A stretch of DNA of 64,000 nucleotides from Aequorivita vladivostokensis (lineage in GTDB: Bacteria > Bacteroidota > Bacteroidia > Flavobacteriales > Flavobacteriaceae): contig NZ_JSVU01000004.1 in NCBI RefSeq assembly GCF_000952855.1, forward strand, positions 62,001 to 126,000, given 5' to 3'. Below are positions 1 through 14,259 of the stretch, piece after piece. The translations under genes and the position numbers were made by a program. The notes below the pieces were generated by a model that was not told the origin of the DNA, made no database searches, and saw nothing but the letters and a program-made list of their open reading frames with translations. Each line of letters starts with the position of its first letter. Positions within the stretch are counted from its first letter, which is position 1.

Positions 1-640
1 GTTTTTGAAGATCGGGCTTTATATGCGAACAGGATTGTGCGCCGTCGATAAGTACGGAAGCTCCATATTCGTGCGCTTTTTCAATAATTATTTCGATGGG
101 GTTGATGGTACCCAAGGCGTTGGAAATATGGTTTACGAAAACCAGTTTCGTTTTTTGGGAAAGCAATTTTTCATATTCCGAAAAAACCAAAACGCCTTCC
201 TCGTTCATTGGAATCACTTTCAAAATGGCACCCGTTTTTTCGCAGAGCATTTGCCACGGCACGATATTGCTGTGGTGTTCCATTGCGGAAACGATTATTT
301 CATCGCCTTTTTTTAGAATTTCAGAAAAACCATTTGCCACCAGATTTATTCCGTGGGTGGTACCCGCCGTAAAAATGATTTCGTAGGCTTCCTTCGCATT
401 AAAATGGGTTTGTATTTTTTTCCGAGCCGCCTCATAGGCATCGGTAGCTTCCTGCGAAAGGGTGTGCACGCCGCGATGAATGTTTGCGTTGTAACGGCTG
501 TAATAATCCACAATGGCATCAATTACCTGTTGCGGCTTTTGCGAGGTGGCCGCATTGTCCAAATACACCAGCGGATAGCCGTTTACCTTTCGGGAAAGGA
601 TGGGGAAATCATTGCGGATTTTCTGAAGGTTGAAGGACAT
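1..640 (-). CDS. sufS: Cysteine desulfurase SufS, N-terminal half (cut by window edge)
   Basis: PLP-dependent cysteine desulfurase that takes sulfur from L-cysteine and supplies it to the SufBCD scaffold. The minus-strand frame opens at an ATG at 640 (MSFNLQKIRNDFP) and stays open for 213 codons to the window edge. Family landmarks are visible: YLDNAATSQKP near residues 25-35, NIHRGVHTL near 54-62, the cofactor-stacking region MEHHSN near 123, and VLIDGAQS near 200. The PLP lysine, expected about 20 residues further on, lies outside the window. It is the last visible gene of the suf operon, about 95 bases after sufD, with an inverted repeat in the gap. A Csd-type paralogue is the alternative, but the operon argues for SufS. 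Confidence 0.93.
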   Translation of the reverse strand, partial: MSFNLQKIRNDFPILSRKVNGYPLVYLDNAATSQKPQQVIDAIVDYYSRYNANIHRGVHTLSQEATDAYEAARKKIQTHFNAKEAYEIIFTAGTTHGINLVANGFSEILKKGDEIIVSAMEHHSNIVPWQMLCEKTGAILKVIPMNEEGVLVFSEYEKLLSQKTKLVFVNHISNALGTINPIEIIIEKAHEYGASVLIDGAQSCSHIKPDLQK

Positions 641-679
641 TTAGTTATTTATAAATTTGAAATTTTAGGAAGCGGTTTT

Positions 680-727
680 ACCACGAATAAACGAACAGTT
701 AAGTTTAATTTTTCGTGCATTCGTGGT
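680..727. repeat. Inverted repeat between sufD and sufS
   Basis: Two 16-base arms (680-695, ACCACGAATAAACGAA, and 712-727) pair at 14 of 16 positions across a 16-base loop. This can fold into a hairpin in the sufD-sufS intergenic transcript. It resembles the REP-like palindromes scattered in Bacteroidota intergenic DNA. It could stabilise or attenuate the operon mRNA, but nothing in the sequence proves that. Confidence 0.6.
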
Positions 728-734
728 GATACTT

Positions 735-2048
735 TTACAACTCAAACCCCAAACTAACTCCAATTTTGTTGGCGATGAGTTTGTTAATTCGGCTTTTCAA
801 CTCTGGAATTTTTACGCTTTCCAAAACGGTGTTGGCAAAGGCGTACATCAATAATGCACGTGATTCTTTTAACCCAATGCCGCGGCTCCGCAAGTAAAAT
901 AAGGCGTCCTCATCAAACTGGCCAATGGTGCACCCGTGCGAGCATTTTACGTCGTCGGCAAAAATTTCCAATTGCGGCTTGGCATTTATCGTGGCTTTGT
1001 CGTCAATCAATATGTTGTTGTTCTGCTGAAAGGCGTCAATCTTTTGGGCATCTTTTTCAACGATGATTTTTCCGTTAAAAACCCCTGTGGACGATTCGGC
1101 GAAGAGCCCTTTGTAATCCTGGTGGCTTTCGCAGTTTGGCGCAATGTGGTGGACGAGGGTGTTATGGTCTGCGTGTTGTTTTCCTTCCAAAATGGTAATT
1201 CCCTTTAATGTGGAATCACAATTTTCTCCTTTTTGGTAAAAGTTGAGGTTGTTGCGGACCAAATTGCCGCCAAAGGCAAATGTATGCACGCGGCAAACCG
1301 TATCACGCTGTTGCGAAATATAGGTATTGTCAATCAGCGAAGCGGTAATTTCGTCATTCTGAATTTTATAATAATCCACATAAGCGCGCTTTTCAGCAAA
1401 AATCTCCGTAACCGAATTGGTAAGCACCTGGTTGCTGGAAAGACTTTGGTGGCGCTCGATAATTTGGACATGTGCATTTTCACCAACCACAATTAAATTT
1501 CTTGGTTGCAGGAAAATGGCAGCTTCATTTCCAGTGGAAAAATTGATGATTTCAATAGGTTTCTCCACCTCTTTATGCGCCGGAATATGAATATATGCGC
1601 CTTCCTTCGTGAAAGCCGTATTGAGCGCAGTCAGGCTGTCGCTTTTTGCGGCCTTATTGAAGTAGGCTTCAATCACGGGCTTGTATTTGCCCTTGTTCAG
1701 CGCTGCCGACATCAAGCAGACATCCAATGAGTCGTGCGTGGTTTCCGAAAGGAAAGAGCTGTAAACGCCGTCTACAAAAACCAATTTATAGGTATCAATT
1801 TCGTGCAGAAAATACTTGCGTACATTTTTAAGCTCTACGTTCCGTTCTTTATGTGAATAGACGCTATAATCAGGTTTCAACAGTGAATTGAGGGAGGTAT
1901 ATTTCCAAGCCTCTTCTTTTTTTGTTGGGAATCCTTTTTCCTCAAAGATTTTAATGGCGCTATTCCGCACATCGTGCAATGGCGAATCAAACTCCAAATA
2001 ATCTTCGAGGGCGATGTATGATGATAATAATTTGTCTTTAAAACTCAT
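735..2048 (-). CDS. sufD: Fe-S cluster assembly protein SufD
   Basis: Scaffold subunit of the cytoplasmic SufBC2D complex; it pairs with SufB through its beta-helix core and helps iron entry during cluster formation. The 437-residue length fits the family. The N-terminal helical region contains KKEEAWKYTSL near 43-53, the middle is beta-rich (EKPIEIINFS), and the C-terminal signature KCSHGCTIGQ starts near residue 368 and contains the conserved His and Cys. This is followed by the SRGIGLKESRALL helix that docks SufC. It lies downstream of sufC but is separated from it by a four-helix-bundle gene, which is unusual for suf operons. The start ATG at 2048 gives the normal N-terminus. Confidence 0.95.
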   Translation of the reverse strand: MSFKDKLLSSYIALEDYLEFDSPLHDVRNSAIKIFEEKGFPTKKEEAWKYTSLNSLLKPDYSVYSHKERNVELKNVRKYFLHEIDTYKLVFVDGVYSSFLSETTHDSLDVCLMSAALNKGKYKPVIEAYFNKAAKSDSLTALNTAFTKEGAYIHIPAHKEVEKPIEIINFSTGNEAAIFLQPRNLIVVGENAHVQIIERHQSLSSNQVLTNSVTEIFAEKRAYVDYYKIQNDEITASLIDNTYISQQRDTVCRVHTFAFGGNLVRNNLNFYQKGENCDSTLKGITILEGKQHADHNTLVHHIAPNCESHQDYKGLFAESSTGVFNGKIIVEKDAQKIDAFQQNNNILIDDKATINAKPQLEIFADDVKCSHGCTIGQFDEDALFYLRSRGIGLKESRALLMYAFANTVLESVKIPELKSRINKLIANKIGVSLGFEL

Positions 2049-2057
2049 GAAAATATT

Positions 2058-2085
2058 GTTTCAAGTTTCTTGTTTCAGGTTTCAA
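2058..2085 (+). repeat. Heptamer tandem array, left flank of four-helix-bundle gene
   Basis: Four consecutive 7-base units (GTTTCAA, GTTTCTT, GTTTCAG, GTTTCAA) fill 2058-2085, with a degenerate fifth unit running into the stop codon of the neighbouring gene. An array of the same kind in inverted orientation lies at 2500-2527, on the other side of that gene. Short tandem heptamers are known from other bacteria, for example the STRR repeats of filamentous cyanobacteria. Their role here is not known. Confidence 0.75.
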
Positions 2086-2086
2086 G

Positions 2087-2476
2087 TTATTTGAACTTGT
2101 TGCCCTTAAATTCATTTTTGTTCAGATATATGATAAAGTTCGCTATTCGTTTACTTAAGTTCAAATATCTATTAACCAGAGAAGATAATTCTTCTTCTGA
2201 AATATATTCAGAATCATAAATCCTATATAATTGCGAGCGAGATTCTCCCGCGGAACCTTTTGCAATTGATAGAAATTGTCTGAATTCTAAATTTCCGTCT
2301 CTTTCAAACCCTTCGGCTATATTGTCCATTACGGAGCCAGATGCGTTTTTTATCTGGTCTCTTAGTTTGTAATCGGTTTTCAGTTCAGTATTTTTTGATA
2401 ACTGGATTATTTCTTTGGAAAGAAGTCTTGCTTCTTTCCAAATATCTAAATCTTCGAACCGTTCAATTGTGGCCAT
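2087..2476 (-). CDS. Four-helix-bundle protein (S23/IVP-like family)
   Basis: A 129-residue, nearly all-helical protein of the TIGR02436 four-helix-bundle family, recognised from the start MATIERFEDLDIWKEA, the central SGSVMDNIAEGFER (near 47-60) and SIAKGSAGESRSQL (near 71-84). The family includes proteins encoded in intervening sequences of some 23S rRNA genes and the Avd accessory protein of diversity-generating retroelements. The biochemical role of stand-alone members is unknown, though a basic nucleic-acid-binding barrel is typical. No reverse transcriptase or template repeat is nearby. The gene is squeezed between sufD and sufC, and inverted heptamer arrays end almost exactly at its borders, so it looks inserted rather than functionally part of the suf operon. 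Confidence 0.85.
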   Translation of the reverse strand: MATIERFEDLDIWKEARLLSKEIIQLSKNTELKTDYKLRDQIKNASGSVMDNIAEGFERDGNLEFRQFLSIAKGSAGESRSQLYRIYDSEYISEEELSSLVNRYLNLSKRIANFIIYLNKNEFKGNKFK

Positions 2477-2499
2477 AAATTTTTAGTTTTTTTATCCAA

Positions 2500-2527
2500 C
2501 CAGAAACTTGAAACCAGAAACCAGAAA
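2500..2527 (-). repeat. Heptamer tandem array, right flank of four-helix-bundle gene
   Basis: Four consecutive 7-base units on the plus strand (CCAGAAA, CTTGAAA, CCAGAAA, CCAGAAA). Read on the minus strand they are TTTCTGG/TTTCAAG units, matching the left array at 2058-2085 in inverted orientation. It sits just upstream of the four-helix gene and just downstream of the sufC stop codon. Confidence 0.75.
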
Positions 2528-2532
2528 CTATT

Positions 2533-3282
2533 TTAAACCAATTCCTCCTTAATCCAATCGTATCCTTTTTCCTCAAGCTCGTAAGCCAGTTCCTTGGTGC
2601 CGGATTTTACAATTCTTCCGTTCATTAAAACGTGTACGAAATCTGGAACTATATAGTCCAAAAGCCGCTGATAGTGTGTAATTACAACTACAGCGTTGTC
2701 TTTGCTCTTCAATTTGTTAACGCCGTTGGCCACAACCTTCAAGGCGTCGATATCCAAGCCGGAATCGGTTTCGTCGAGGATGGCCAGTTTGGGCTCCAGC
2801 ATTGCCATTTGGAAAATTTCGTTCCGTTTCTTTTCACCTCCGGAGAAGCCCTCGTTCAATGAACGGGAAAGGAATTTGCGGTCAATTTCCAGCATGTCTG
2901 CCTTTTCCTTAATCATTTTTAGCATTTCGGATGCGGGCATATCGTCCATCTTTTTCGACTTGCGGGTTTCGTTGATGGCCGTTTTTATAAAATTGGTCAC
3001 CGAAACCCCAGGAATTTCCACAGGATATTGGAACGAAAGAAAGATGCCCTTGTGTGCTCTTTCCTCGGGATCCAATTCTGAAATATCCTCATTCTCAAAA
3101 GTGATGTACCCGCGGCTTACCTCATATTCTTCCTTGCCGGCCACCACCGAGGCCAAGGTACTTTTTCCTGAGCCGTTGGGGCCCATTATGGCGTGAACTT
3201 CACCGGCTTTTACTTCAAGGTTGATGCCTTGTAGTATGTCTTTTCCTTCAAATCCGGCGTATAAATCTTTTATTTTTAACAT
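2533..3282 (-). CDS. sufC: Fe-S cluster assembly ATPase SufC
   Basis: ABC-type ATPase that drives conformational change in the SufBC2D scaffold. I chose the ATG at 3282 (MLKIKDLYAG, 249 residues), not the in-frame ATG at 3309. The short form matches the usual SufC N-terminus and begins one base after the upstream lipoprotein stop, whereas the long form would overlap that gene. Walker A GPNGSGKST lies at 34-42, the Q-loop Gln near 85, the signature FSGGE at 146-150, Walker B LAILDE at 166-171 followed by the SufC-typical TDSGLD, and the switch His near 203. Tight spacing to its neighbours supports cotranscription. Confidence 0.95.
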   Translation of the reverse strand: MLKIKDLYAGFEGKDILQGINLEVKAGEVHAIMGPNGSGKSTLASVVAGKEEYEVSRGYITFENEDISELDPEERAHKGIFLSFQYPVEIPGVSVTNFIKTAINETRKSKKMDDMPASEMLKMIKEKADMLEIDRKFLSRSLNEGFSGGEKKRNEIFQMAMLEPKLAILDETDSGLDIDALKVVANGVNKLKSKDNAVVVITHYQRLLDYIVPDFVHVLMNGRIVKSGTKELAYELEEKGYDWIKEELV

Positions 3283-3283
3283 A

Positions 3284-3691
3284 TTAATTATTCTTTGCTG
3301 ATTCTTCAAATTTTATATCTGCTTCTGAAGGTTTATCGTTAACCCTCATAATTTCGGTTATTGTTATCACTTCATCCCACTCGCTGTCGCTATCGGTATT
3401 TTTTGAAATAGTTCCTCTTACCACTACGCCCACCATGTCGAAATCATTCTTTTTCACCTTGGCTACCTGTTGCGAGAGTTGGTTGGCCCTATCGTTGCGT
3501 TTTACGCCGTAAATAAAATTCGTTCCCATAAGTACCAAGGCACCATCGGAGTCAATAAAATCTCCTTTATAGGCTTTGATATTTTCAGGGGTTTCGGCAG
3601 CTATCTCAGTAGTTTCGGTGGTTTTTTCTTCGGAATTTTTACAGGAAAATACCACTGTGGTAAGCATTAACAACAAAACGATTTTTTTCAT
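3284..3691 (-). CDS. Putative lipoprotein inside the suf operon
   Basis: Not a protein I can name. It has 135 residues, an N-terminal signal MKKIVLLLML and a lipobox ending at Cys17 (VVFSC), so it should be a lipid-anchored envelope protein. A Thr/Glu-rich linker (residues 20-40) is followed by a compact domain of about 90 residues with alternating beta-like segments (ALVLMGTNFIYG, MVGVVVRGTIS, EVITITEIM), suggesting a small OB-like or beta-barrel fold; that is inference. It lies between sufB (45 bases) and sufC (1 base), so it is almost certainly cotranscribed with the Fe-S assembly genes although its product leaves the cytoplasm. Confidence 0.75.
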   Translation of the reverse strand: MKKIVLLLMLTTVVFSCKNSEEKTTETTEIAAETPENIKAYKGDFIDSDGALVLMGTNFIYGVKRNDRANQLSQQVAKVKKNDFDMVGVVVRGTISKNTDSDSEWDEVITITEIMRVNDKPSEADIKFEESAKNN

Positions 3692-3736
3692 AGGTTGTCT
3701 TATTTAGTTTTACTTGGTTCTTCAGATAATTAGGAT

Positions 3737-5185
3737 TTAACCCACAGAACCTTCGAGGCTGATTTCTAACAACTTTTGGGCCTCTACGGCAAATTCCATA
3801 GGCAGCTTGTTCAACACTTCCTTACTAAAACCATTTACGATCAGTGCAATGGCCTTTTCGGTATCAATTCCCCGCTGGTTGCAATAGAAAATTTGGTCTT
3901 CGCCAATTTTACTGGTCGTGGCCTCGTGTTCTATTTGGGCGGTTTTGTTTTTTGCTTCAATATAGGGGAAGGTGTGCGCGCCACAACTGTTGCCCATCAA
4001 CAAGGAATCGCACTGCGAAAAATTCCGCGCATTATCGGCATTGGGCATAATCTTTACCAGCCCGCGGTAACTGTTTTGTGATTTCCCTGCCGAGATTCCT
4101 TTGGAAATAATAGTGCTGCGCGTGTTTTTACCAATATGGATCATCTTTGTACCCGTATCTGCCTGCTGATAATCGTTGATCACGGCAATGGAGTAAAACT
4201 CGCCGATGGAATTGTCGCCTTTCAGAATACAACTTGGATATTTCCAGGTTACGGCACTTCCCGTTTCTACTTGGGTCCAGGAAATTTTTGCATTTTTCTC
4301 GCAAAGGCCTCTTTTGGTCACAAAATTGTAAACCCCGCCTTTTCCTTCCTTATCGCCAGGAAACCAGTTTTGGACCGTTGAGTATTTTATCTCGGCACCG
4401 TCCAGGGCAATAAGTTCCACCACGGCGGCGTGCAACTGGTTTTCGTCGCGGCTTGGGGCGGTACAGCCTTCCAAATAGCTTACGTAGCTGCCTTCATCGG
4501 CAATTACGAGGGTTCTTTCAAACTGTCCGGTTCCGGCCTGGTTAATTCTGAAATAGGTAGAAAGCTCCATCGGGCAGCGAACGCCTTTTGGGATGTAACA
4601 AAAGGAACCATCACTAAACACGGCACTGTTAAGGGCGGCGTAAAAATTATCGCGCTGCGGCACTACGGTTCCCAGATATTTTTTTACCAGTTCGGGATAT
4701 TTACGAATGGCTTCGGAAATAGAACAGAAAATAATCCCCTTTTCCGCCAAGGTCTTTTGGAAGGTGGTTGCCACGGAAACGGAATCCATCACAATATCCA
4801 CGGCAACCCCGGCAAGTTTTTTTTGTTCGTCCAGCGAAATGCCAAGCCGTTTGAAGGTGTCCAAAAGTTCGGGATCTACTTCGTCTATACTGTCGTATTT
4901 CGGCTTTTTATTTGGGGCGGAATAGTAGGAAATATTTTGAAAATCCGGCTTTTCATAGTGCACATTGGCCCAATCGGGTTCAATCATTTGCTTCCAATGG
5001 CGGAACGATTCCAATCGCCATTCGGTCATCCATTCCGGCTCTTCCTTCTTTTTTGAAATGGCGCGCACAACGTCTTCATTGATGCCAACGGGAAAGGTAT
5101 CGGACTCTATGTCGGTATAGAAACCATATTCGTATTCCTTGGTTTCCAGTTCTTTTTTTAAATCGTCTTCAGTGTATTTAGTCAT
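3737..5185 (-). CDS. sufB: Fe-S cluster assembly protein SufB
   Basis: Main scaffold subunit of the SufBC2D complex, on which the nascent cluster is built with sulfur from SufS. The 482-residue length is normal. Recognisable segments are [19 protein letters not shown] (near 99-117), [38 protein letters not shown], and the C-terminal [13 protein letters not shown] with the conserved Cys near residue 401, followed by [12 protein letters not shown]. The ATG at 5185 is followed directly by the family N-terminus. Heptamer repeats and a GC-rich palindrome separate it from sufA upstream. Confidence 0.96.
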
Positions 5186-5186
5186 C

Positions 5187-5214
5187 AGTTTTCAGTGTTC
5201 AGTGTTCAGTAAAT
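5187..5214 (+). repeat. Heptamer tandem array between sufA and sufB
   Basis: Four 7-base units (CAGTTTT, CAGTGTT, CAGTGTT, CAGTAAA) begin two bases upstream of the sufB start codon. The sequence differs from the arrays at 2058 and 2500 but the 7-base period is the same, so it probably belongs to the same class of repeat. It occupies the position where the sufB leader would lie. Confidence 0.65.
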
Positions 5215-5261
5215 CAGTTGTCGACTTTTTTTCAGTCGTTAGTAAAAAGCACGTCTGAGTT

Positions 5262-5283
5262 CCCCCTTGGGGGGATAGGGGGC
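5262..5283. repeat. GC-rich palindromic element downstream of sufA
   Basis: CCCCCTTGGGGGG followed by ATAGGGGG stands out in AT-rich DNA in the sufA-sufB gap. Similar CCCC(T)n..GGGG elements occur inside nadD (36328-36351) and, in weaker form, near 41620, which suggests a dispersed family. It could fold in the sufA-sufB transcript. Confidence 0.55.
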
Positions 5284-5289
5284 TTTTTT

Positions 5290-5619
5290 TTAAAGTGAAA
5301 AAGATTCTCCACAGCCACAAGTTCTATTTGCATTGGGATTGTTGAAAACAAAACCCTTTCCGTTTAGCCCGCCACTGTATTCCAGCGTGGTGCCTACCAA
5401 GTATAAAAAGCTTTTTTTATCTACGGCTATTTTTACGTCTTCTTCTTCAAAAAGTTTATCGTTTTCGCCCAGACTGTGGTCAAATTTCAATTCATAGCTC
5501 AAGCCCGAACATCCGCCGCTTTTAACCCCAACACGCACAAAATCATTTGCAATGTTGAAGCCTTCCTCGGCCATCAACTGGGCAATCTTGGTTTTAGCGC
5601 TTTCACTTACCTTAATCAT
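5290..5619 (-). CDS. sufA: A-type Fe-S carrier protein (SufA/IscA family)
   Basis: Small carrier that receives Fe-S clusters and passes them to apo-proteins. At 109 residues it has the family length. The three conserved cysteines are visible: Cys37 in SGGCSGLSY, and Cys101 and Cys103 in the C-terminal CGCGESF. It is the first gene of the minus-strand suf cluster, so the main promoter should lie just above 5619. The symbol sufA is chosen from operon context; HesB/IscA names are equally possible by sequence. Confidence 0.92.
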   Translation of the reverse strand: MIKVSESAKTKIAQLMAEEGFNIANDFVRVGVKSGGCSGLSYELKFDHSLGENDKLFEEEDVKIAVDKKSFLYLVGTTLEYSGGLNGKGFVFNNPNANRTCGCGESFSL

Positions 5620-5645
5620 ATATAGATTAATTCTAAATTAGACGG

Positions 5646-5653
5646 CAAATATA
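5646..5653 (-). promoter_or_regulatory. Candidate -7 box for the suf operon
   Basis: TATATTTG on the minus strand matches the Bacteroidota -7 consensus TAnnTTTG and would place the transcription start about 20 bases before the sufA ATG. A clear TTG-type -33 element is not visible at the right spacing, so support is weak. An 11-base palindrome, TCTAAATTAGA (5632-5642), lies next to the expected start site and could be an operator. Confidence 0.35.
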
Positions 5654-5774
5654 CATCAATTCGCACTTTTAACCATACGGAAGTGGGATTTTAAAACTAT
5701 AGAGCCATAGTTTTAAACAATAATTAACACCCCAAGTTTTTTGGGATTTTAGAAATTGAAAATTACTTCAGGAA

Positions 5775-6863
5775 TCAATTGGGATCCTGAAAATCGGGAT
5801 TATTGATAAATGAAGAATCGGAAAGTGAAAGTAGAAATGCCTTTAGGTCTGCTTTGTCAGATTCCGTTAAATGCACTCCGCCGCGGGAAACGGCTTTCAT
5901 AAGCGGATCAATGGTCCTTGAATACACAAGCCCCTCGCTGTAATGGTTTATCACCTCATCCAAGGTTGCGAAACGGCCATCGTGCATATAGGGTGCGGTA
6001 AAAGCAAGGTTGCGCAGCGATGGCGATTTAAAAAGCCCATCGTGATTGGGGTCTCCCGTCACCTCTCCCAAGCCTTTATCGGTAATTATCGCGTCCAGGC
6101 CATTATTGTGAAAAGCGTTATCGGTCCACAGGGGGCTATTGTCGTTGCCATGGCAATGGAAACAGTCGCCTCGGGACTCGTCCATAAATATTTGGAAGCC
6201 GTTCAATTCCTGGGGTGTAAGACTGCCTTCACCCAACAGATATTTGTCAAAAGGTGAGTTGGCAGAAATGAGCGTCCTCTCAAACTGGGCAATTGCCTTG
6301 GCGGTCAATTCTTTGGTAATATTGCTGGTGCCAAAGGCTTTGTTGAACATTTCTGGATAGGCCGCATGGCTTTGTAAACTGGCGACTGCATTTTCCCAGG
6401 TGTTGTGCATTTCAACTGGGTTTTCCACGGGTCCGAGGGCTTGCTCCTCAATACTGTTGGCGCGTCCATCCCAGAAAAACTTATCTGTGGTGCTCCAGGC
6501 CATATTGTAGATGGGCATAGAATTTCGGGTGCCCTCCAGACCGTCTATTCCAACGCTGAAACGATTGGTATCGGAAAATGAATTACTTGGTTGGTGGCAG
6601 GAGGCACAAGCCTGTGTGCCATCGCCCGAAAGTATCGGGTCGAAGAAAAGTTTTCGGCCTAAGGCCACTCCCTCGACGGTTTGGGGATTGTCCGCAGGAA
6701 TATTGGGTGGCGGCAAAAGGCGTTTAAAAATAGGGGGAACGGCCAGGGGTTTTGGTGTTGGCACGTAATCTTCGTTGGGATCTATGGGATCCGGATCGCT
6801 GGATGAACAAGCGATAAATAGGCTTAAGATTAACACGCCGAAGAAATATTTAAGAATTTTCAT
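5775..6863 (-). CDS. Di-heme cytochrome c peroxidase family lipoprotein (MbnH/MauG-like)
   Basis: A 362-residue di-heme enzyme of the bacterial cytochrome c peroxidase/MauG superfamily. A lipobox ends at Cys19 (LFIAC), so it should be anchored in the envelope. Two c-type heme motifs are present, CASCH at 86-90 and CFHCH at 234-238, plus the family segments KFFWDGRA (near 128-135) and TAPYMHDGRF (near 289-298). It lies 20 bases after an MbnP-like gene. In Methylosinus, MbnH oxidises a tryptophan of MbnP to kynurenine to create a copper site, so this pairing suggests MbnH-type activity rather than simple peroxide removal. That assignment is by context; a classical peroxidase is the alternative. 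Confidence 0.85.
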   Translation of the reverse strand: MKILKYFFGVLILSLFIACSSSDPDPIDPNEDYVPTPKPLAVPPIFKRLLPPPNIPADNPQTVEGVALGRKLFFDPILSGDGTQACASCHQPSNSFSDTNRFSVGIDGLEGTRNSMPIYNMAWSTTDKFFWDGRANSIEEQALGPVENPVEMHNTWENAVASLQSHAAYPEMFNKAFGTSNITKELTAKAIAQFERTLISANSPFDKYLLGEGSLTPQELNGFQIFMDESRGDCFHCHGNDNSPLWTDNAFHNNGLDAIITDKGLGEVTGDPNHDGLFKSPSLRNLAFTAPYMHDGRFATLDEVINHYSEGLVYSRTIDPLMKAVSRGGVHLTESDKADLKAFLLSLSDSSFINNPDFQDPN

Positions 6864-6883
6864 GGCAGTTCCTTCATTTTAAA

Positions 6884-7645
6884 TTATTGTGAAATAGCAC
6901 CAATGCTAAAAACGCTTGCACCGTTATCGTGCATATATTTTTGTGCTGCATAGTTCATCATTAGATCGGTATCATATACGTTTAAATCCCAAGTATAGGG
7001 GTTTTTGTACCATTCTGAAACATCCATTTTAATCTCGATGGAAGTATCGCCAGAAATAGTGACGTTTCTCTCGAAATCAAAACTCAAATAGTTCTGTTCA
7101 AAAACGCCTTCGCTCACACGGGCGGTTCCGTGATGGTAGGCATAGGACTGTAACGCACCATTGGCATCTTCATACTTCCCTTCCATTTGCATAAAATGGT
7201 ATCCCCCGCCCAGCATGTCGGGCCAGTTCCAACTTGCGGCATTCAGGTCTGGATAGGCGCCGCTCACGTTATCGGCTTCATTAAAACCATAGATAAAGGA
7301 AATTCCAGTATACTCGCCCGTGGGCACCCTTAAAGTTGGATTAAGTTTCAGGGAATTTACGTCCGTAACATCTATTAATTGATAATCATCAAACTTAATG
7401 GTTGAACCGTCTGCCTTATGAAGTTCAATACCGGAGATAAGATATCGCAATTTGGAAATGGTCAAGGTAGTGCCGAGGGCATTTGTGTATGAAGATGCTC
7501 CATTGAAATTGGATGCGGTAACAGGATCACCATCCCAATTCTGGGTAAATTCAAAGGTAACGGCGGCATCTACGGCTACATCATCGTCGTTGTTACAACC
7601 AATTATGGCAAAAGCCAGGGCAAATAGGAAAGCAATTTTTTTCAT
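6884..7645 (-). CDS. MbnP-family lipoprotein (putative copper-binding)
   Basis: A 253-residue protein with signal peptide and lipobox Cys17 (AIIGC), then an acidic Asn/Asp spacer and a beta-rich domain. Landmarks of the MbnP family (PF20243) are LTISKLRYLISGIEL (61-75), IYGFNEADN (118-126), the Trp pair SWNWPDMLGGGYHFM (138-152) and YHHGT (170-174). In the characterised homologue one Trp is converted to kynurenine by the partner peroxidase and the protein then binds copper with high affinity. Trp139 and Trp141 are the obvious candidates by position, but I cannot align the modified residue with certainty. The partner gene is directly downstream, so the two should be made together. Confidence 0.82.
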   Translation of the reverse strand: MKKIAFLFALAFAIIGCNNDDDVAVDAAVTFEFTQNWDGDPVTASNFNGASSYTNALGTTLTISKLRYLISGIELHKADGSTIKFDDYQLIDVTDVNSLKLNPTLRVPTGEYTGISFIYGFNEADNVSGAYPDLNAASWNWPDMLGGGYHFMQMEGKYEDANGALQSYAYHHGTARVSEGVFEQNYLSFDFERNVTISGDTSIEIKMDVSEWYKNPYTWDLNVYDTDLMMNYAAQKYMHDNGASVFSIGAISQ

Positions 7646-7672
7646 AAAGATATGAGATGTGGTTTATATGGT

Positions 7673-9025
7673 TTACTTTATTTTAATCACTAAAAAATCT
7701 TTCGAGCCTTTGTTTGAAGGAATGTCCAAATCATCGCTCTCGCTATTGCCTACAACCAAAATTTTATTGTCGGTCGTTTCAATTGCTTCTGAAGCAAAAT
7801 CAAGGCTCGAGCCACCTATGGTGTTTTGGAATTTTAAGTTTCCGCTTTGGTCTATAACAAAAACCCACACATCGTTTACACCGTTGTTAGTTTTCAGATC
7901 GCCATCAGAACTACGGCTGTGTCCCGAAAGAATGTAATCTCCATTGCTGCGCTGTACGATGCTGTGTGCGGTATCAAACTGGGAACCGCCAAAGGATTTT
8001 TGCCAAATTTTACTTCCGTTGTCATCAAATTTTACCAACCAAGCATCTGCGTTGCCGCGTGGTGCGGTTACATCTTGATCAGCACTTCTGGAATCGCCAA
8101 CCATAATATAGTTGCCATCTTGGGTTTTAATGCTGGCGTATGAATTATCGATCTCATCTCCACCAAAGGATTTGGTCCACAGCAAATCGCCATTGGCTTT
8201 AAGGCGTACTGCCCAATAATCGTAGCTTCCTTTTGGGTCGGTTTTATCGAAATCCTCACTTTCGGAGGTGCCAGTCATCAAAAAGCCGCCGTCATCGGTT
8301 TCCAAGGCGTCGTAGCTTCGGTCATTATTGGTTCCGCCAAAATAACGTCTCCATTGGATAGTGCCAGTTGCATTCAACTTAATTCCCCAAAATTCACCAA
8401 CCCCGTGCAGTACCCCCTTTTGTAAATCATTCCCGGCACCCCCACTGGCAGATACATCAAAATACCCAGTGACGAAATAGCCGCCATCTGAGGTTTGAAA
8501 AGCTTTAAAAGCCTGATCGCTACCGGAAAATCCAAATGTTTTTTCCCAAAGGATGGTACCACCGTTATCTACTTTAACCACCCAATAATCCTGGAATCCT
8601 GCATTTTCATAAATATCGCCATCGCTGCTAGTGGTGTAACCGGTCAATAAATAACCCCCGTCATTGGTTTTAGTTATTCTGGAGGCGTTTTCGTCATCGC
8701 TTCCGCCATAGGTCTTGCTCCAGATGATTTCTCCGGTTTTCGAAAGTTTCAATAACCAAAAATCGCTATCGTTTCCGGCTCTGTCCGTAATATCGCCATC
8801 GGAACTTCGGGTGGTACCCAGAACCATATAATTACCGTCCCCAGTTTCAACTACGGAAACTGCTTCGTCAATGCCGCTTCCACCATAGGTTTTTATCAGC
8901 TCTATTTCACCATTTATCTCGGATTCGGGTCCTGGGCCATCATCCTTTCCGCAGGAAAATAATACTAGCGCTATTGCAAGCAAAAGTGGAACGGCTTTGT
9001 AATTGGGGCTTTTAGTAATTAGCAT
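7673..9025 (-). CDS. Seven-repeat beta-propeller lipoprotein
   Basis: A 450-residue protein with an N-terminal hydrophobic segment and a lipobox at Cys25 (VLFSC). After a Gly/Pro/Asp linker come seven repeats of 50-70 residues, each with a GGSxxDxA-type opening (GGSGIDEA, GGSDDENA, GFSGSDQA, GGTNNDRS, GGDEIDNS, GGSQFDTA, GGSSLDFA), then DGGYLLTG-like and DYWVVKVD-like strands. This is what a seven-bladed propeller predicts. No catalytic motif is evident; a binding or scaffold role is likely. It sits between the LVIVD-repeat gene and the MbnP gene with gaps of about 20-30 bases, so it belongs to the same operon. Confidence 0.78.
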   Translation of the reverse strand: MLITKSPNYKAVPLLLAIALVLFSCGKDDGPGPESEINGEIELIKTYGGSGIDEAVSVVETGDGNYMVLGTTRSSDGDITDRAGNDSDFWLLKLSKTGEIIWSKTYGGSDDENASRITKTNDGGYLLTGYTTSSDGDIYENAGFQDYWVVKVDNGGTILWEKTFGFSGSDQAFKAFQTSDGGYFVTGYFDVSASGGAGNDLQKGVLHGVGEFWGIKLNATGTIQWRRYFGGTNNDRSYDALETDDGGFLMTGTSESEDFDKTDPKGSYDYWAVRLKANGDLLWTKSFGGDEIDNSYASIKTQDGNYIMVGDSRSADQDVTAPRGNADAWLVKFDDNGSKIWQKSFGGSQFDTAHSIVQRSNGDYILSGHSRSSDGDLKTNNGVNDVWVFVIDQSGNLKFQNTIGGSSLDFASEAIETTDNKILVVGNSESDDLDIPSNKGSKDFLVIKIK

Positions 9026-9044
9026 AATGGGGATATCTGGATTT

Positions 9045-10454
9045 TTAGTCTATTAATAATCCTTTTGTCGTAGTTGAATTTATCTTCATTACATACATTC
9101 CCGATTGAAGGTTAGAAATATTGATCTTTTCCGAAAGACTGTCGCCAAAGTTAAGAGCCATTACCTTTTGGCCCAAGACGTTGAAGATTTCAATGGTTGA
9201 AATTGGGTCCACTTTTGAAAACACCTCCACTACATCCGTTGCCGGATTTGGAGTGATGGCAAAGTTTGAAATTGTGTTTTCATTTACACCCAAAAGCGGA
9301 TCCCTAACTATAAATAGACCGCTATTGATATCGCTTATCACGATATTACCACTGGCAAAGAATGGATAAACGCTCCAGGCGCCATCAAAGCGGGCAGAGT
9401 TACTAGAAGGATAGGTGTCAAAAAATTTGGTCTCCACCATGTTTTCCCCTTCTACATCACTAATATCAAAAACTCTTAGGCCGGCACGATAACTGGCAAG
9501 ATAGAATTCATTTCCTTTTACGTAGCCATTATGGTCAATGGCGGCAACAGTTGCTTCGTATTCAAAATGGACCACAGGATTGTCAAGGTCGGTTACGTCA
9601 AAAATGATGGTACGCGTATTAAAACCGGAGTTGGCCTCGTCCAGTTCGTCGCCAATAATAAAGTAGCGCTTGTCCTCGGTTAACCAACCTTGGTGCGTAT
9701 AATCAACACTTCCGTAAAAACCGTTTGAGATACCTATTGGGTTGTTTTTGTCGGTTACGTCAACAATTGAAATTCTATCCTCATTGCTTCCGAAAAAGAT
9801 CTCACGGCCCGTGTAATCTGAATCGGGACCATCGTAAATAACCACCTGTGCATCGTGGCAGTAATAATCATTGCTGAAACCCCCTTCACCCACTGGGTTT
9901 ATAGGGTCTTGGATATTTACAAAATGCGGCCCGCCATTGAAAGACACCGTTCCCACGGCATAGGCATATCCAGTCTCTTCGTTTATCACAATGTTGTGGG
10001 CATTACCAAAACCGTTATAGTGGGCATCTTCGGTAAAAGTTTCTGGCGCATTGGATACACTTCGCAAGCGCGTTAAATCGAATACCTGCATGCCATGTCC
10101 TCCAGCTTCACTAACAATAAAGGCATGGTCATTGTAAACTTTTATGTCTCTCCAAGAACTAGGATCGGTATGGGTAGGAAGTTTACCCAGATACACAGGG
10201 TTTACTGGGTCTGTAATATCCACGAAGGCTGTACCGTTGCCCAGACCCATCAAAGCGTATTCCTTTCCATCCAAAGGGTCTGTCCACCCCCAGGAATCAT
10301 TGCCCCTGTCTGAGCCGAAAGTGCCCAGGCTGATTCGCGATAATAAATCTAAGCCACTGCAGGGATATTGACCCGCCATTCCATTAACACAAGGTGTCTG
10401 TGCGAAGGAAAAAGTTGCTAAAAAAAGTGCTAAAACTGGTAATATTTTTTTCAT
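9045..10454 (-). CDS. Choice-of-anchor B family protein with T9SS sorting domain
   Basis: A 469-residue secreted protein. Residues 1-18 form a signal peptide (MKKILPVLALFLATFSFA). The body has LVIVD-type repeats (AFVDITDPVNPVYLG, HFVNIQDPINPVGEG, ISIVDVTDKNNPIG, IIFDVTDLDNPV, LRVFDISDVEGEN), each beta-strand rich, as in the choice-of-anchor B family (TIGR04312). The last 75 residues form a type A T9SS C-terminal domain (ITPNPATDVVEVFS, then IFNVLGQKVM and SGMYVMKI), so it should be exported by the type IX system and attached to the surface. It is first in the operon with the propeller lipoprotein, MbnP and the di-heme enzyme. Its molecular role is unknown. Confidence 0.85.
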   Translation of the reverse strand: MKKILPVLALFLATFSFAQTPCVNGMAGQYPCSGLDLLSRISLGTFGSDRGNDSWGWTDPLDGKEYALMGLGNGTAFVDITDPVNPVYLGKLPTHTDPSSWRDIKVYNDHAFIVSEAGGHGMQVFDLTRLRSVSNAPETFTEDAHYNGFGNAHNIVINEETGYAYAVGTVSFNGGPHFVNIQDPINPVGEGGFSNDYYCHDAQVVIYDGPDSDYTGREIFFGSNEDRISIVDVTDKNNPIGISNGFYGSVDYTHQGWLTEDKRYFIIGDELDEANSGFNTRTIIFDVTDLDNPVVHFEYEATVAAIDHNGYVKGNEFYLASYRAGLRVFDISDVEGENMVETKFFDTYPSSNSARFDGAWSVYPFFASGNIVISDINSGLFIVRDPLLGVNENTISNFAITPNPATDVVEVFSKVDPISTIEIFNVLGQKVMALNFGDSLSEKINISNLQSGMYVMKINSTTTKGLLID

Positions 10455-10490
10455 TTATTGATATTATATGGTTTAAAAAACGGCTAAATG

Positions 10491-10523
10491 TAAACATATT
10501 ATAACCTCTTCTACAAACGCAAA
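10491..10523 (-). promoter_or_regulatory. Candidate promoter of the MbnP/MbnH cassette
   Basis: On the minus strand TTTG (523-520 of the local 10 kb block) is followed after 21 bases by TATGTTTA (10498-10491), a one-mismatch fit to the Bacteroidota -33/-7 pair TTTG and TAnnTTTG. Transcription would begin about 30 bases before the first gene of the cassette, and no other good site is visible within the cassette's short intergenic gaps. Confidence 0.45.
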
Positions 10524-10626
10524 AGGTTAAATATTAGTATTGTGATTTTTTAAGCAATGTTTTATTTGACTTTTATATTGGTTTTCGAAGATGTACTTTT
10601 GCCAAAATTCCTAAGAAATCTGAACC

Positions 10627-11682
10627 ATGTTTGAAAATAAGGACAGCTCCCATACAAGTATTGAAAATTTAGGTGAATTTGGCCTGATTGATCATTTAAC
10701 CAAAAATTTCAAAATAAAACAAAAATCGACTGTTAAGGGAATAGGCGATGATGCTGCCGTTATAGCCTGCGACCCTAAGGAGGAATTGGTAATAACAACC
10801 GATTTATTGGTGGAAGGCGTCCATTTTGATTTGAGTTACGTACCATTGAAGCATTTGGGATATAAGGCAGTGATCGTTAATCTATCCGATGTGTACGCCA
10901 TGAATGCTGAACCCACCCAAATTACGGTAAGCGTGGCCGTATCAAACAGATTTCCAGTGGAAGCTTTGGAAGAACTATATGCTGGCATCCAGGCCGCGGC
11001 CCAATTGTACAATGTGGATGTAGTAGGAGGCGACACCACCTCATCCACCACAGGCTTGTTAATAAGCATTACTGCCTTGGGAACCGTAAAGAAAGGTGCC
11101 GCCGTATATAGAAGTGGCGCTAAGGAAAACGATCTGCTTGTTGTAACTGGGGATCTTGGTGCGGCATATATGGGACTTCAGGTTTTGGAGCGCGAAAAGG
11201 AGGTTTTTAAAGTGAACCCAAATTCACAGCCCGATCTGGAACCGTATTCGTATTTGGTGGAAAGACAATTGAAACCCGAGGCCCGTAAGGATATTACTAA
11301 TTTATTAAAAGAATTGGAGGTGAGACCAACAGCGATGATTGACATTAGCGATGGCCTGTCTTCCGAAATTATCCATATCTGCAAAAATTCCGAAGTGGGT
11401 TGTAATTTATATGAAGATAAAATCCCGCTGGATCCGCAGGTTATTGCTACCTGTGAGGAGTTTAATTTGGATAGCACCACCATCGCCTTAAGTGGTGGTG
11501 AGGATTATGAGTTGCTTTTCACCATTAGTACCGAAGATTTCCCAAAAATAAAGGGTAATCCCCATTTAACGGTCATTGGTCATATAACCGACGAAAAAGA
11601 AGGTGTGCATTTAATAAGCCGTGCGGGAACTAAAATACCTCTGATTGCACGCGGGTGGAATGCGCTGAAGAATGAGGAATAA
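10627..11682 (+). CDS. thiL: Thiamine-monophosphate kinase ThiL
   Basis: Phosphorylates thiamine monophosphate to the active cofactor thiamine diphosphate. The 351-residue length fits. Motifs are GIGDDAAVI (near 38-46), the metal-binding TTDLLVEGVHFD (near 57-68), VVGGDTTSS (near 131-139), DISDGLSSEI and SGGEDYELLF. The gene stands alone, divergent from the MbnP cassette; a TACTTTTG box at 10594-10601 lies about 25 bases upstream of its start. Confidence 0.95.
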   Translation: MFENKDSSHTSIENLGEFGLIDHLTKNFKIKQKSTVKGIGDDAAVIACDPKEELVITTDLLVEGVHFDLSYVPLKHLGYKAVIVNLSDVYAMNAEPTQITVSVAVSNRFPVEALEELYAGIQAAAQLYNVDVVGGDTTSSTTGLLISITALGTVKKGAAVYRSGAKENDLLVVTGDLGAAYMGLQVLEREKEVFKVNPNSQPDLEPYSYLVERQLKPEARKDITNLLKELEVRPTAMIDISDGLSSEIIHICKNSEVGCNLYEDKIPLDPQVIATCEEFNLDSTTIALSGGEDYELLFTISTEDFPKIKGNPHLTVIGHITDEKEGVHLISRAGTKIPLIARGWNALKNEE

Positions 11683-11754
11683 CCTTTTTACAAGGCAATA
11701 CAAATCTGCTTTCCTTTGAAAGGAAACAGAATTATCAAAAATAGTGTGGGCTTT

Positions 11755-12000
11755 TTAATGAATTGAAAGCTTTTTCTTTTTCATAAAAAACGTAGAAAGG
11801 CATTCATTTATCTCACGTTGCCTGCGGGTAAGCAGTTCAAATTTACCTGAATAACTGTTTGAGACTTCCTTGCCGCAACAAGCACATTTATATTCATTAA
11901 TGTGATCGGTAATTTTACGGGTAACAATGTAATCATGGCCAAACGCACTGCATACAAGGCTCAAGATTGGAGGTCGGCTTTGGGGCGTAACTTTATCCAT
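11755..12000 (-). CDS. Small zinc-ribbon-like protein, unknown function
   Basis: An 81-residue protein not assigned to a named family. It has a Cys/His pattern CSAFGHDY (Cys17, His22) and CACCGKEV (near 39-46) that could bind zinc, followed by a basic helix (TRRQREINECL) and a Lys-rich C-terminus. The composition suggests a cytoplasmic nucleic-acid-associated protein, but that is inference. It is monocistronic, convergent with thiL and 62 bases from the next minus-strand gene. Codon usage looks like the rest of the window. Confidence 0.7.
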   Translation of the reverse strand: MDKVTPQSRPPILSLVCSAFGHDYIVTRKITDHINEYKCACCGKEVSNSYSGKFELLTRRQREINECLSTFFMKKKKLSIH

Positions 12001-12062
12001 CTTAACAAATAATTTGGGGTTAATGATTCAATATTAACGTTTTTTTAGATAAAGTGCAAATT

Positions 12063-12842
12063 TTATCCGATTAAATGCAAATATTCCGCAACGGTTTCTT
12101 CATTTTCTATCATGCTCATATGGCCGCCCTCAATTATTTTTACTGAAGCATCGCATTGGTCGAATATCCGTTTTGTATCCCAAACCGGTAAAATGGGATC
12201 TTCCTTTGCCAATATCGCGTTTTTTGGTTTAGTGAAATTTTTTAAAACTGCCGATCTGTCCTTTCGGTCCCGCATACCTTTAATGGCGGCGGTTACTCCT
12301 TCTACGGGGAATGCGAATGCTTCCTTTTTTAAAATTGCGATCCTCTTGTCAAATCTTTCGCGAGAGGATTCGGCAAACAGATTGCCAATGGCCATGCTGA
12401 TATAGGCTTGCGGATTTTGGCGGATAACCTTTAAGGCGCGATTGCGGTTTTCCCTTCGCTCCTCGGAATCGGCTTCGGGTGTTGAATTAAGAAGTATTAA
12501 TTTTTCAACTTTTTCTGAAAACATTTCAGCATAAGCCAAAGCAACATAACCACCCATAGAATGGCCGATGAACGTTGCTGACGAAATTTTCAATTGTTGA
12601 AGTAATTCTTGCACTACTTCGGCCATAAGCTCCATAGTATGTATTTCTGCAATAACCCCGCTTTTCCCGTGGCCGGGAAAATCCATCGTTATTAAGGTAT
12701 TCTTTTTTGAAAACTCTGGGATTAGGGGATTCCACATATTGGAACTTTCCAAAAACCCGTGGAGAAGAACCTTTGCTGGCCCTTTTCCGAAGGTTTCAAA
12801 ATGAATTGGAGTATTTTTGAATTGAAACATCATATTTTGCAA
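12063..12842 (-). CDS. Alpha/beta hydrolase
   Basis: A 259-residue serine hydrolase of the alpha/beta fold. The oxyanion HG motif is near 28-29 (LLHGFLESSNMW), the nucleophile elbow GHSMGG has Ser95, and the catalytic His is near 241 in GGHMSMIENEE; an acidic residue lies in the AKEDPILPVWD stretch. There is no signal peptide, so it acts in the cytoplasm. The substrate is not predictable; similarity is to BioH/MenH-type or esterase-like members. An alternative start is the Met-Met pair at residues 4-5. Confidence 0.88.
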   Translation of the reverse strand: MQNMMFQFKNTPIHFETFGKGPAKVLLHGFLESSNMWNPLIPEFSKKNTLITMDFPGHGKSGVIAEIHTMELMAEVVQELLQQLKISSATFIGHSMGGYVALAYAEMFSEKVEKLILLNSTPEADSEERRENRNRALKVIRQNPQAYISMAIGNLFAESSRERFDKRIAILKKEAFAFPVEGVTAAIKGMRDRKDRSAVLKNFTKPKNAILAKEDPILPVWDTKRIFDQCDASVKIIEGGHMSMIENEETVAEYLHLIG

Positions 12843-12843
12843 A

Positions 12844-12877
12844 AGACCCCAAAGATCTTAAAAGAACTGTGGGGTCT
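12844..12877 (-). terminator. Hairpin terminator after aminopeptidase P gene
   Basis: AGACCCCA (12844-12851) and TGGGGTCT (12870-12877) form an 8-bp stem; on the minus strand it is followed by TTTT. It sits between the aminopeptidase stop and the hydrolase start, so it should separate the two transcripts. Confidence 0.5.
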
Positions 12878-12969
12878 GAACTTTTTATTATTTCTTCAAA
12901 TGAAGTTTATATTATTAATTTCACCTTCGTACCTGCCTGCTGTAGACACGTCGGTAGGGTTAGAAGGGC

Positions 12970-14259
12970 TTAATTCATCAAGTCCTCTATTTCCTCTGCC
13001 TCAATAGGAATGTTACGCATCAAATTAAATGGCTCGCCCTTTTTTTGGATAACTACATCGTCTTCCAATCGGATGCCGAAACCTTCCTCCGGAATATAGA
13101 TTCCCGGCTCAACGGTGAAAACCATATCTTCGGTCATCTTTTCCCACAGGATACCATAGTCGTGCGTATCCAGCCCAATGTGGTGGCTGGTGCCGTGCAT
13201 AAAGTATTTTTTGTAGGCAGGCCAGTTTGGATCTTCGTTTTTCACATCAGCCTTGTCCAAAAGTTTTAAATCCAAAAGGGCTTTCGTCATTAGTTTGCCC
13301 ACTTCTTCGTGATATTCCTTCCAATAATTTCCGGGAACGAGCATTTTTGTAGCATTGTCTTTTACCTTTTTTACGGCATCGTACACCTCGCGCTGCCGCT
13401 TGCTGAATTTTCCGCTTACGGGAATGGTGCGCGTCATATCGCTGGAATAGTTGGCATACTCAGCACCTACATCCAAAAGAAGCAAATCACCTTTCTTACA
13501 TTGTTGGTTATTCTCTATATAGTGTAGCACGTTCGCGTTATTTCCACTGGCAATGATGGGGGTATAGGCAAAACCACGGGAACGGTTTCTTAAAAATTCA
13601 TGCATGAATTCAGCTTCGATCTCGTATTCCCAAACGCCGGGTTCTACGAAATTAAGGATTCTTCTGAACCCTTTTTCCGTGATATCACAGGCTTGCTGTA
13701 GGATGTCTATTTCAATTTTATCCTTTACGCTACGCAGGCGTTGCAAGATAGGATTGCTTCGCTCCCAACTGTGCGCCGGAAATTTTTCCTTTGTTTTCTG
13801 GATAAAGCGATCTTCGCGGGTTTCGGTTTCCACACTTTGGCGATAATGCTCATTGGTGTTGAAATAAATACGCTCTGCCTGCGTCATTACTTCAAAGAAA
13901 ATTTTATCAAATTCCTTTAGCCAATAAATAGATTTAATGCCGCTTACCTCGGTAGCCTTTTCCTTAGTGAGTTTTTCGCCTTCCCAAACGGCAATGTGGT
14001 CGTTGGTCTCGCGCACGAACAGCATTTCGCGGTGTTCCTTGTTTGGTGCATCGGGAAAAAGAACCAGAATGGTTTCTTCTTGGTCGGCACCGGTTAGGTA
14101 AAAAATATCGCGTGCCTGCTGGAATGGCATGGTGCTATCTGCGCCAATGGGATAAATATCATTACTGTTAAAGACCGCCACACTCTTTGGCTTCATTTGG
14201 GCCATAAAGTTTTTGCGGTTTTTTATAAAGAGTTTGCTGGGTATTTGATCGTATTTCAT
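12970..14259 (-). CDS. Xaa-Pro aminopeptidase (aminopeptidase P, M24B family)
   Basis: Metallopeptidase that removes N-terminal residues preceding proline. It has 429 residues with an N-terminal domain (residues 1-170) and a C-terminal pita-bread domain. The five metal ligands can be seen: Asp in LLLDVGAEY, Asp in SSDMTRTIPV, His in HGTSHHIGLDTHD, Glu in TVEPGIYIP and Glu in IRLEDDVVI. No signal peptide is present, so it is cytoplasmic. The gene is followed by a hairpin at 12844-12877 and stands upstream of the hydrolase. Confidence 0.93.
   Translation of the reverse strand: MKYDQIPSKLFIKNRKNFMAQMKPKSVAVFNSNDIYPIGADSTMPFQQARDIFYLTGADQEETILVLFPDAPNKEHREMLFVRETNDHIAVWEGEKLTKEKATEVSGIKSIYWLKEFDKIFFEVMTQAERIYFNTNEHYRQSVETETREDRFIQKTKEKFPAHSWERSNPILQRLRSVKDKIEIDILQQACDITEKGFRRILNFVEPGVWEYEIEAEFMHEFLRNRSRGFAYTPIIASGNNANVLHYIENNQQCKKGDLLLLDVGAEYANYSSDMTRTIPVSGKFSKRQREVYDAVKKVKDNATKMLVPGNYWKEYHEEVGKLMTKALLDLKLLDKADVKNEDPNWPAYKKYFMHGTSHHIGLDTHDYGILWEKMTEDMVFTVEPGIYIPEEGFGIRLEDDVVIQKKGEPFNLMRNIPIEAEEIEDLMN

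Follow-up and report, generated by a model that had tools for sequence, protein, structure and literature searches.

Gene content of the locus

A stretch of 64,000 nucleotides from Aequorivita vladivostokensis (contig NZ_JSVU01000004.1, positions 62,001 to 126,000; hereafter the window) holds four adjacent minus-strand genes, designated C, b, P and H in the order of transcription. C and b encode propeller proteins, while P and H encode an MbnP/MbnH pair (P-H). According to the list of open reading frames (ORFs), the gaps C-b, b-P and P-H measure 19, 27 and 20 bases. The four-gene module is real and conserved; its parts come from known families, with P and H being divergent members.

C matches the choice-of-anchor-B family TIGR04312 with 565.5 bits (curated cut-off 100) and its tail matches the type A signal of the type IX secretion system (T9SS) with 44.7 bits (cut-off 23). 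In b, a Trp/Asp repeat motif is present at residues 90, 148, 213, 271, 329, 387 and 443, which is consistent with seven blades, and the solved structures most closely related to b are CylK chains (E 1.3e-27). P has a lipobox Cys, the MbnP fold by computation and 121 bits to PF20243 (MbnP; cut-off 27). It reaches 19.8 of the 140 bits of the equivalog model TIGR04052, a cut-off which is also missed by three canonical-type flavobacterial MbnPs (55.1, 47.9 and 42.9). H carries two CxxCH motifs and matches CCP_MauG (PF03150) with 205 bits. Its best NCBIfam model is TIGR04039 (MbnH), with 265.6 bits under a curated cut-off of 362.85, and it matches 6e1c, which we take to be the MbnH of Methylosinus trichosporium, with an E of 3.8e-55. 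H also matches the gamma model of hydrazine synthase weakly (E 4.9e-7), far under the cut-off of that model.

A first-pass annotation made from the letters of this DNA had described a tight minus-strand operon (gaps of about 18-30 bases) of a di-heme enzyme, an MbnP-like lipoprotein, a seven-repeat propeller lipoprotein and a T9SS-exported LVIVD-repeat protein. Operon and first three proteins are as described. For the fourth the export tail is correct, the LVIVD label being only loosely right, as no LVIVD match was found in Pfam at an E of 0.01.

Table 1. Features of the four-gene locus and its surroundings (positions within the window)
Feature	Position	Strand	Length	Remarks
C	9045-10454	minus	469 aa	choice-of-anchor-B seven-bladed propeller, T9SS type A tail
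b	7673-9025	minus	450 aa	seven-repeat propeller lipoprotein of the P-H-associated type (D311, R313; without H169/H171)
P	6884-7645	minus	253 aa	MbnP of the GGGYH subfamily (W139, W141, H150, H171, W219, M229)
WNW codons of P	7223-7231	minus		W139 at 7229-7231, candidate kynurenine site; W141 at 7223-7225
H	5775-6863	minus	362 aa	MbnH/MauG-type di-haem enzyme lipoprotein (C86xxCH90, C234xxCH238, W131, Y308)
Candidate Bacteroidota promoter upstream of C	10484-10517	minus		TTTG (10514-10517) and TACATTTAG (10484-10492)
thiL	10627-11682	plus		left neighbour; synteny marker, outside the system
Fe-S_biosyn protein	5290-5619	minus	109 aa	right neighbour; synteny marker, outside the system
sufB	3737-5185	minus		right neighbour; synteny marker, outside the system

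Distribution and synteny

The same four-gene order was sought in the Flavobacteriaceae, as the first-pass annotation had proposed, and was found widely. The 199 family genomes surveyed contain 110 MbnP loci, spread over 99 genomes, and at least 65 of these loci, in 65 genomes, lie 1.4-3.1 kb from a same-strand TIGR04312 gene among the TIGR04312 matches listed. Those matches comprise 150 places in 102 of the 105 bearing genomes; G114, G198 and G234 have no place, which affects the adjacency counts as well as the counts of genomes with both families or only one. Adjacency is seen in 65 of the 70 family genomes with both among the matches listed, and the genome table gives 71 genomes with both families, 34 with TIGR04312 only and 28 with MbnP only. 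Within the genus sample, MbnP is present in 21 of 28 genomes, 20 of which have a same-strand TIGR04312 gene at 1.7-1.9 kb. The only MbnP-bearing genus genome without adjacency is G007, with a contig of 6.6 kb. Two of the 23 genus MbnP loci are second, isolated copies.

Outside the family, none of the 16 genomes of the phylum with both families (in one, G377, MbnP is below the cut-off) has a same-strand pair within 20 kb. None of the 10 such genomes of the order has a pair within 9 kb, the nearest (G045) being 9.5 kb apart on opposite strands; contig breaks might conceal some adjacent pairs in these control genomes. Since the controls are without adjacency, the cassette is a feature of the Flavobacteriaceae and some metagenome bins (labelled Flavobacteriaceae, Flavobacterium or Bacteroidetes) and is not general to MbnP or TIGR04312. 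Chance or general adjacency as the cause of the cassette was rejected based on the family, phylum and order counts.

The cassette loci examined number 64, namely the window, 55 other adjacent pairs of the family sample and 8 genus loci. Besides the window, all 63 fetched loci have the order C (1-5 copies), b, P, H, which is not an unbiased count of gene order because the set was picked for adjacency. The stretches of 62 of the 64 loci contain both thiL and sufB, and both are missing from those of 14 isolated MbnP loci. In L068, L095, L083 and L094, four or five tandem C genes stand upstream of a single b-P-H. L091 has ORFs of 929 and 209 aa between MbnP and MbnH (10756-14171), whose starts resemble, as judged by eye, a sensor and a response regulator.

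Two types of the b propeller

C and b also occur without the pair. Loci with TIGR04312 and no adjoining MbnP were fetched from 22 of the 32 listed TIGR04312-only genomes and from G233, which has its MbnP elsewhere. Of these 23 loci, 21 have b and 22 have a called C; the C of the remaining one (L145) was located by its TIGR04312 match only and the MbnP of cassette locus L112 by its profile match only, both having been missed by the simple ORF caller. In 19 of the 23, both thiL and sufB are present. Because such loci exist there, C-b can stand alone at the thiL/suf place.

The type of b agrees with the presence or absence of P-H in 83 of 83 loci. The two types differ at 27 positions, among them R313 (64/64 with P-H, 0/21 without) and D311 (59/64 and 0/21). 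H169 and H171 show the reverse (0/64 with P-H, 21/21 without) and H145 is found in 13/64 and 21/21, respectively. For C, the sole difference is N370 in the copy next to b, the copy used in this comparison, in the C tree and in its grouping test.

The thiL+sufB tree needs at least seven changes of the P-H state, five being forced by starred branches (exclusion of the two b-less loci brings the total down to five), and the same data reject a grouping of the P-H-free rows (p-AU 9.2e-6). L111 and L160 are not in this tree, nor are L147 and L164 in its grouping test. In the b tree, built without 25 of the 27 type-specific columns, the P-H-free rows form one side of a single branch (support 91). As the two trees disagree, b and P-H moved or stayed together against the genome background. 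The C tree has seven state changes, two of them forced by starred branches; leaving out the two loci that lack b reduces the changes to five. In part, C may thus have moved along with b and P-H.

Six cassettes (L067, L075, L091, L110, L111 and L112) hold a P-H of the canonical type. Five of their P proteins nest among those of isolated pairs (support 98; the P of L112 is not in the tree) and all six H proteins group together with the isolated pairs' type (support 92). Therefore, at least one further acquisition or exchange of the pair took place at the cassette site. Main-type pairs without propellers in the stretch are seen in L135, L136, L137, L140 and L141. In L104 (7506-10588), an MbnP/MbnH pair is followed by a YHYH-domain protein (PF14240) with a T9SS tail, another secreted partner. 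L144, from an uncultured bacterium, has a divergent GGGYH-type MbnP beside MbnH, with no propeller called in its stretch.

These data bear on a purely positional explanation, in which P-H happens to occupy a position of stable synteny and is functionally unconnected with the propellers. The thiL-suf place is indeed stable and the genes adjoin, and linkage alone could match the b types. However, two distant P-H lineages are found at the same place, the b types match P-H against the genome tree, and neither MbnP nor TIGR04312 was matched in 6 of the 28 genus genomes; such an accident is improbable.

MbnP and MbnH

Cassette MbnP is a divergent subfamily with the MbnP fold. The positions given in the first-pass annotation for Trp139 and Trp141 are correct, and in the window these residues form a WxW with the first Trp present. 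Aligned with the canonical MxWxW motif, W139 is kept in 52 of 58 cassette-type MbnPs, with Phe in the other six, while W141 is kept in 18 and lost in 40. The Met of MxWxW, a copper ligand in MbnP, is invariant in 14 of 14 canonical-type rows and absent from the window P and the cassette-type rows shown. Compared to MbnP of Methylosinus trichosporium (7l6g), the cassette protein thus mostly lacks the second Trp and lacks the Met, and it has H150 (58/58), W219 and M229 as new invariant residues. H171 is present in all 63 MbnPs. Copper binding and kynurenine formation are plausible. By analogy, a two-His copper site is proposed; the copper site of CorA consists of two His, kynurenine and water, according to the available text of PMC3912023.

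In MbnH, C86/C89/H90, C234/C237/H238 and W131 are conserved in 64 of 64 rows and Y308 in 63; the one row without it is an additional, distant di-haem protein of L067. W131 and Y308 presumably equal Trp93 and Tyr294 of MauG, judging from the alignment ends and not from a direct alignment. The six MbnP rows with Phe for W139 reflect up to three changes on the tree, and every haem and Trp/Tyr residue checked is intact in the MbnH of these rows. MbnH might act elsewhere, turning W219 of MbnP or a propeller Trp into a quinone-like or kynurenine cofactor. Besides the Phe rows, the distribution of W219 (58 of 58 cassette-type MbnPs, none of the five canonical-type MbnPs at the cassette locus) argues for this, as does the precedent of MauG, whose partner methylamine dehydrogenase has a propeller as its large subunit. 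On the other hand, no gain of a Trp in C or b together with P-H, which would point to extra substrates of MbnH, was found when P-H and P-H-free loci were compared. Action elsewhere is quite unlikely.

The C propeller

The axial-ring candidates of C are W55, W101, H153, H200, H254, H308 and W360, with the acids D103, D201 and E270. The four His, W101 and the three acids are found in 98 of 98 cassette rows and W55 in 97. The AlphaFold2 (AF2) model of C has a predicted local distance difference test score (pLDDT) of 91.7, and the four invariant His are at or beside strand starts; the strands holding them are taken as inner strands. Foldseek gives the Sphingobium phosphotriesterase 5hrm as the top match (E 9.7e-12). 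In VIA, 5hrm and generic propellers tie at Z 30.6, 5hrm has the longest and most identical alignment among the rows shown (332 residues, 17 %), and a hydrazine synthase chain is also present; most Foldseek and VIA rows are generic propellers. In a sequence profile search, 5hrm ranked first and was not significant (E 0.22). C and this phosphotriesterase of Sphingobium TCM1 thus have the propeller fold in common, with 14-17 % identity. The Sphingobium enzyme is said, in the title of a 2016 paper by Mabanglo, to have a binuclear metal centre in a seven-bladed propeller. The model suggests a metal site in C as well, and C is likely to be a cell-surface enzyme dependent on metal. A search of the open literature for 'choice-of-anchor B' returned no paper.

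Given this His set, P-H might serve to build or load the active site of C, a role proposed for the SCO1 and MauG-like genes that accompany the Cu-dependent methanethiol oxidase MtoX. MtoX (SBP56) has a propeller fold, and other precedents in which a MauG-like gene goes with a copper enzyme of the four-His kind are methylamine dehydrogenase and hydrazine synthase. As described in the available part of PMC5739008, the mtoX-SCO1-mauG arrangement places the genes of a copper protein and a MauG-like protein next to that of an enzyme in which four His are conserved for Cu and conserved Trp are proposed to form a tryptophan tryptophylquinone (TTQ) cofactor. Similarly, C combines four invariant axial His with Trp in its ring and is the multi-copy member of the cassette. 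However, W55, W57, W101, H153, H200, H254, H308 and W360 are also present in 22 of 22 P-H-free rows, and the ring His, Trp and acids in all 24 relatives from outside the cassette, even the remote ones (W360 in 23). Moreover, it is b, not C, that tracks P-H. Maturation of C by the pair is therefore unlikely. The cassette further differs from mtoX-SCO1-mauG in its other propeller family, in having MbnP for SCO1 and two propellers, and in that the C family is also found without the pair; no SBP56 or SCO1 match was obtained for the four proteins in Pfam or NCBIfam (E 0.01).

Location of the proteins

A lipobox Cys is present in 59 of 63 b rows, 63 of 63 MbnP rows and 61 of 64 MbnH rows, and in 51/59, 62/63 and 54/61 of these, respectively, the six residues after it include two or more acids (no control set). 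These acids, such as those of CGKDDG after the lipobox of the window b, resemble the lipoprotein export signals C-X-K-(D/E)2-X and SDDFE given in the available text of PMC5080379. The C proteins are, in a rough split, T9SS-exported or lipoproteins. Judging from these signals, all four proteins are probably outside, and this speaks against an inward copper route.

Such a surface-to-periplasm route, with surface propellers binding copper and handing it inward via MbnP, was part of the first-pass annotation and found no direct support. The idea draws on MbnP being a copper protein in Methylosinus, and on isolated P-H pairs being often accompanied by a protein of 330-346 aa (8 of 14 isolated MbnP loci, L135 and L136), for which a membrane barrel is a guess. 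This partner is absent from all 64 cassette loci, none of the four genes encodes a transporter, and b and MbnP carry the outside-facing signal-like residues; copper capture is hence improbable. At the cassette loci, it is as if the propellers replace the 330-346 aa neighbour.

This neighbour bears a CDLC motif and is common to both P-H lineages (L098:9671-10663 and L135:4746-5786, BLASTP E 5e-25). A 108-aa protein with a CNGKCHL motif is a further neighbour at L098.

Other features of the host genome

The consensus of Bacteroidota promoters is TTTG/TAnnTTTG, and the promoter-like block upstream of C is mostly, not fully, kept across 17 Aequorivita loci plus the window; among the 17, some represent one genome twice. 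No known RNA elements were found in window positions 1-14000 at gathering scores. In the host genome, MbnP is matched once and TIGR04312 twice, and the T9SS protein SprA is present. The second TIGR04312 protein of this genome (L165, C8:74928-76037) is about 1031 aa long, and the 16 kb fetched for it yielded no called b, P or H; long paralogues of this kind recur across the genus. A second CCP_MauG match (L186, C5:50629-51063) lies apart from the cassette, in an open frame of 609 aa.

Proposed function

The reading that we tentatively favour is a flavobacterial surface locus of the propellers C and b, in which MbnP/MbnH would be an optional metal-handling arm working with b. MbnH would oxidise W139 of MbnP, probably to kynurenine, after which MbnP would bind copper via H171 and H150 in a two-His site as in CorA, these two His standing in for the His-plus-Met of Methylosinus MbnP. 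Copper-loaded MbnP would then serve b as a redox partner or metal donor, and b would work with C, the probable metal-dependent surface enzyme. In P-H-free loci, the extra His of b (H145, H169 and H171) may do the metal work itself.

Several points weigh against an optional arm of this kind. Kynurenine at W139 cannot be general, because six of the 58 MbnPs have Phe there despite an intact MbnH. Within the window, the cassette is flanked by thiL and Fe-S genes and not by genes for copper handling, and the rule used for export signals is a consensus resemblance only. On starred branches, only four independent contrasts of b type and P-H are found, all in the same direction (sign test p 0.125), and the co-inheritance may be simple linkage since b adjoins P-H. 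For C, a p-AU of 0.057 gives no clear rejection of a single group of P-H-free rows (L153 and L164, with no b called, were left out). Finally, P-H may be ancestral and lost, not added, because the P-H-free b type nests inside the P-H type in the midpoint-rooted b tree, of which the root is not inferred; the P-H-bearing state is also the commoner one (at least 65 genomes, compared to 34 with TIGR04312 only).

A more specific version is rather doubtful: a four-His propeller enzyme C and its partner b might be served by one of two interchangeable metal arms. One arm would be a b that bears His and is self-contained; the other would combine a b poor in His with a copper protein of the two-His/kynurenine kind and the di-haem maturase of that protein.

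Among known systems, CorA/MopE-CorB/SACCP is similar in that a surface-associated kynurenine copper protein is found beside a di-haem enzyme, and no propellers are mentioned in the available text of PMC3912023. CorA/MopE is not markedly similar in sequence to MbnP, as stated in the accessible part of PMC3621798. According to the same part, MbnP/MbnH pairs are conserved far beyond methanobactin producers, their role there being called unclear. The companions of the cassette pair are surface propellers, and not the methanobactin or TonB-transport genes described there. The word 'Bacteroidetes' does not occur in PMC3621798, and no paper on a 'metallo-mystery pair' was found in the open literature. 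No description of the four-gene cassette was found in the literature searched, which did not cover the paper on MbnP by Manesis et al. (PNAS 2021), whose neighbourhood analysis may mention propeller neighbours.

The locus presents a surface propeller family with a metal-site-like set of His, for which no described function was found in the literature searched. The Trp-to-Phe MbnP rows make the need for kynurenine directly testable, and the states with and without P-H offer a natural comparison. The cassette gives MbnP/MbnH pairs a fixed partner in at least 65 genomes of the family sample. If true, arm swapping at one fixed locus would mean that protein-derived kynurenine is put to modular use beyond the copper uptake of methanotrophs.

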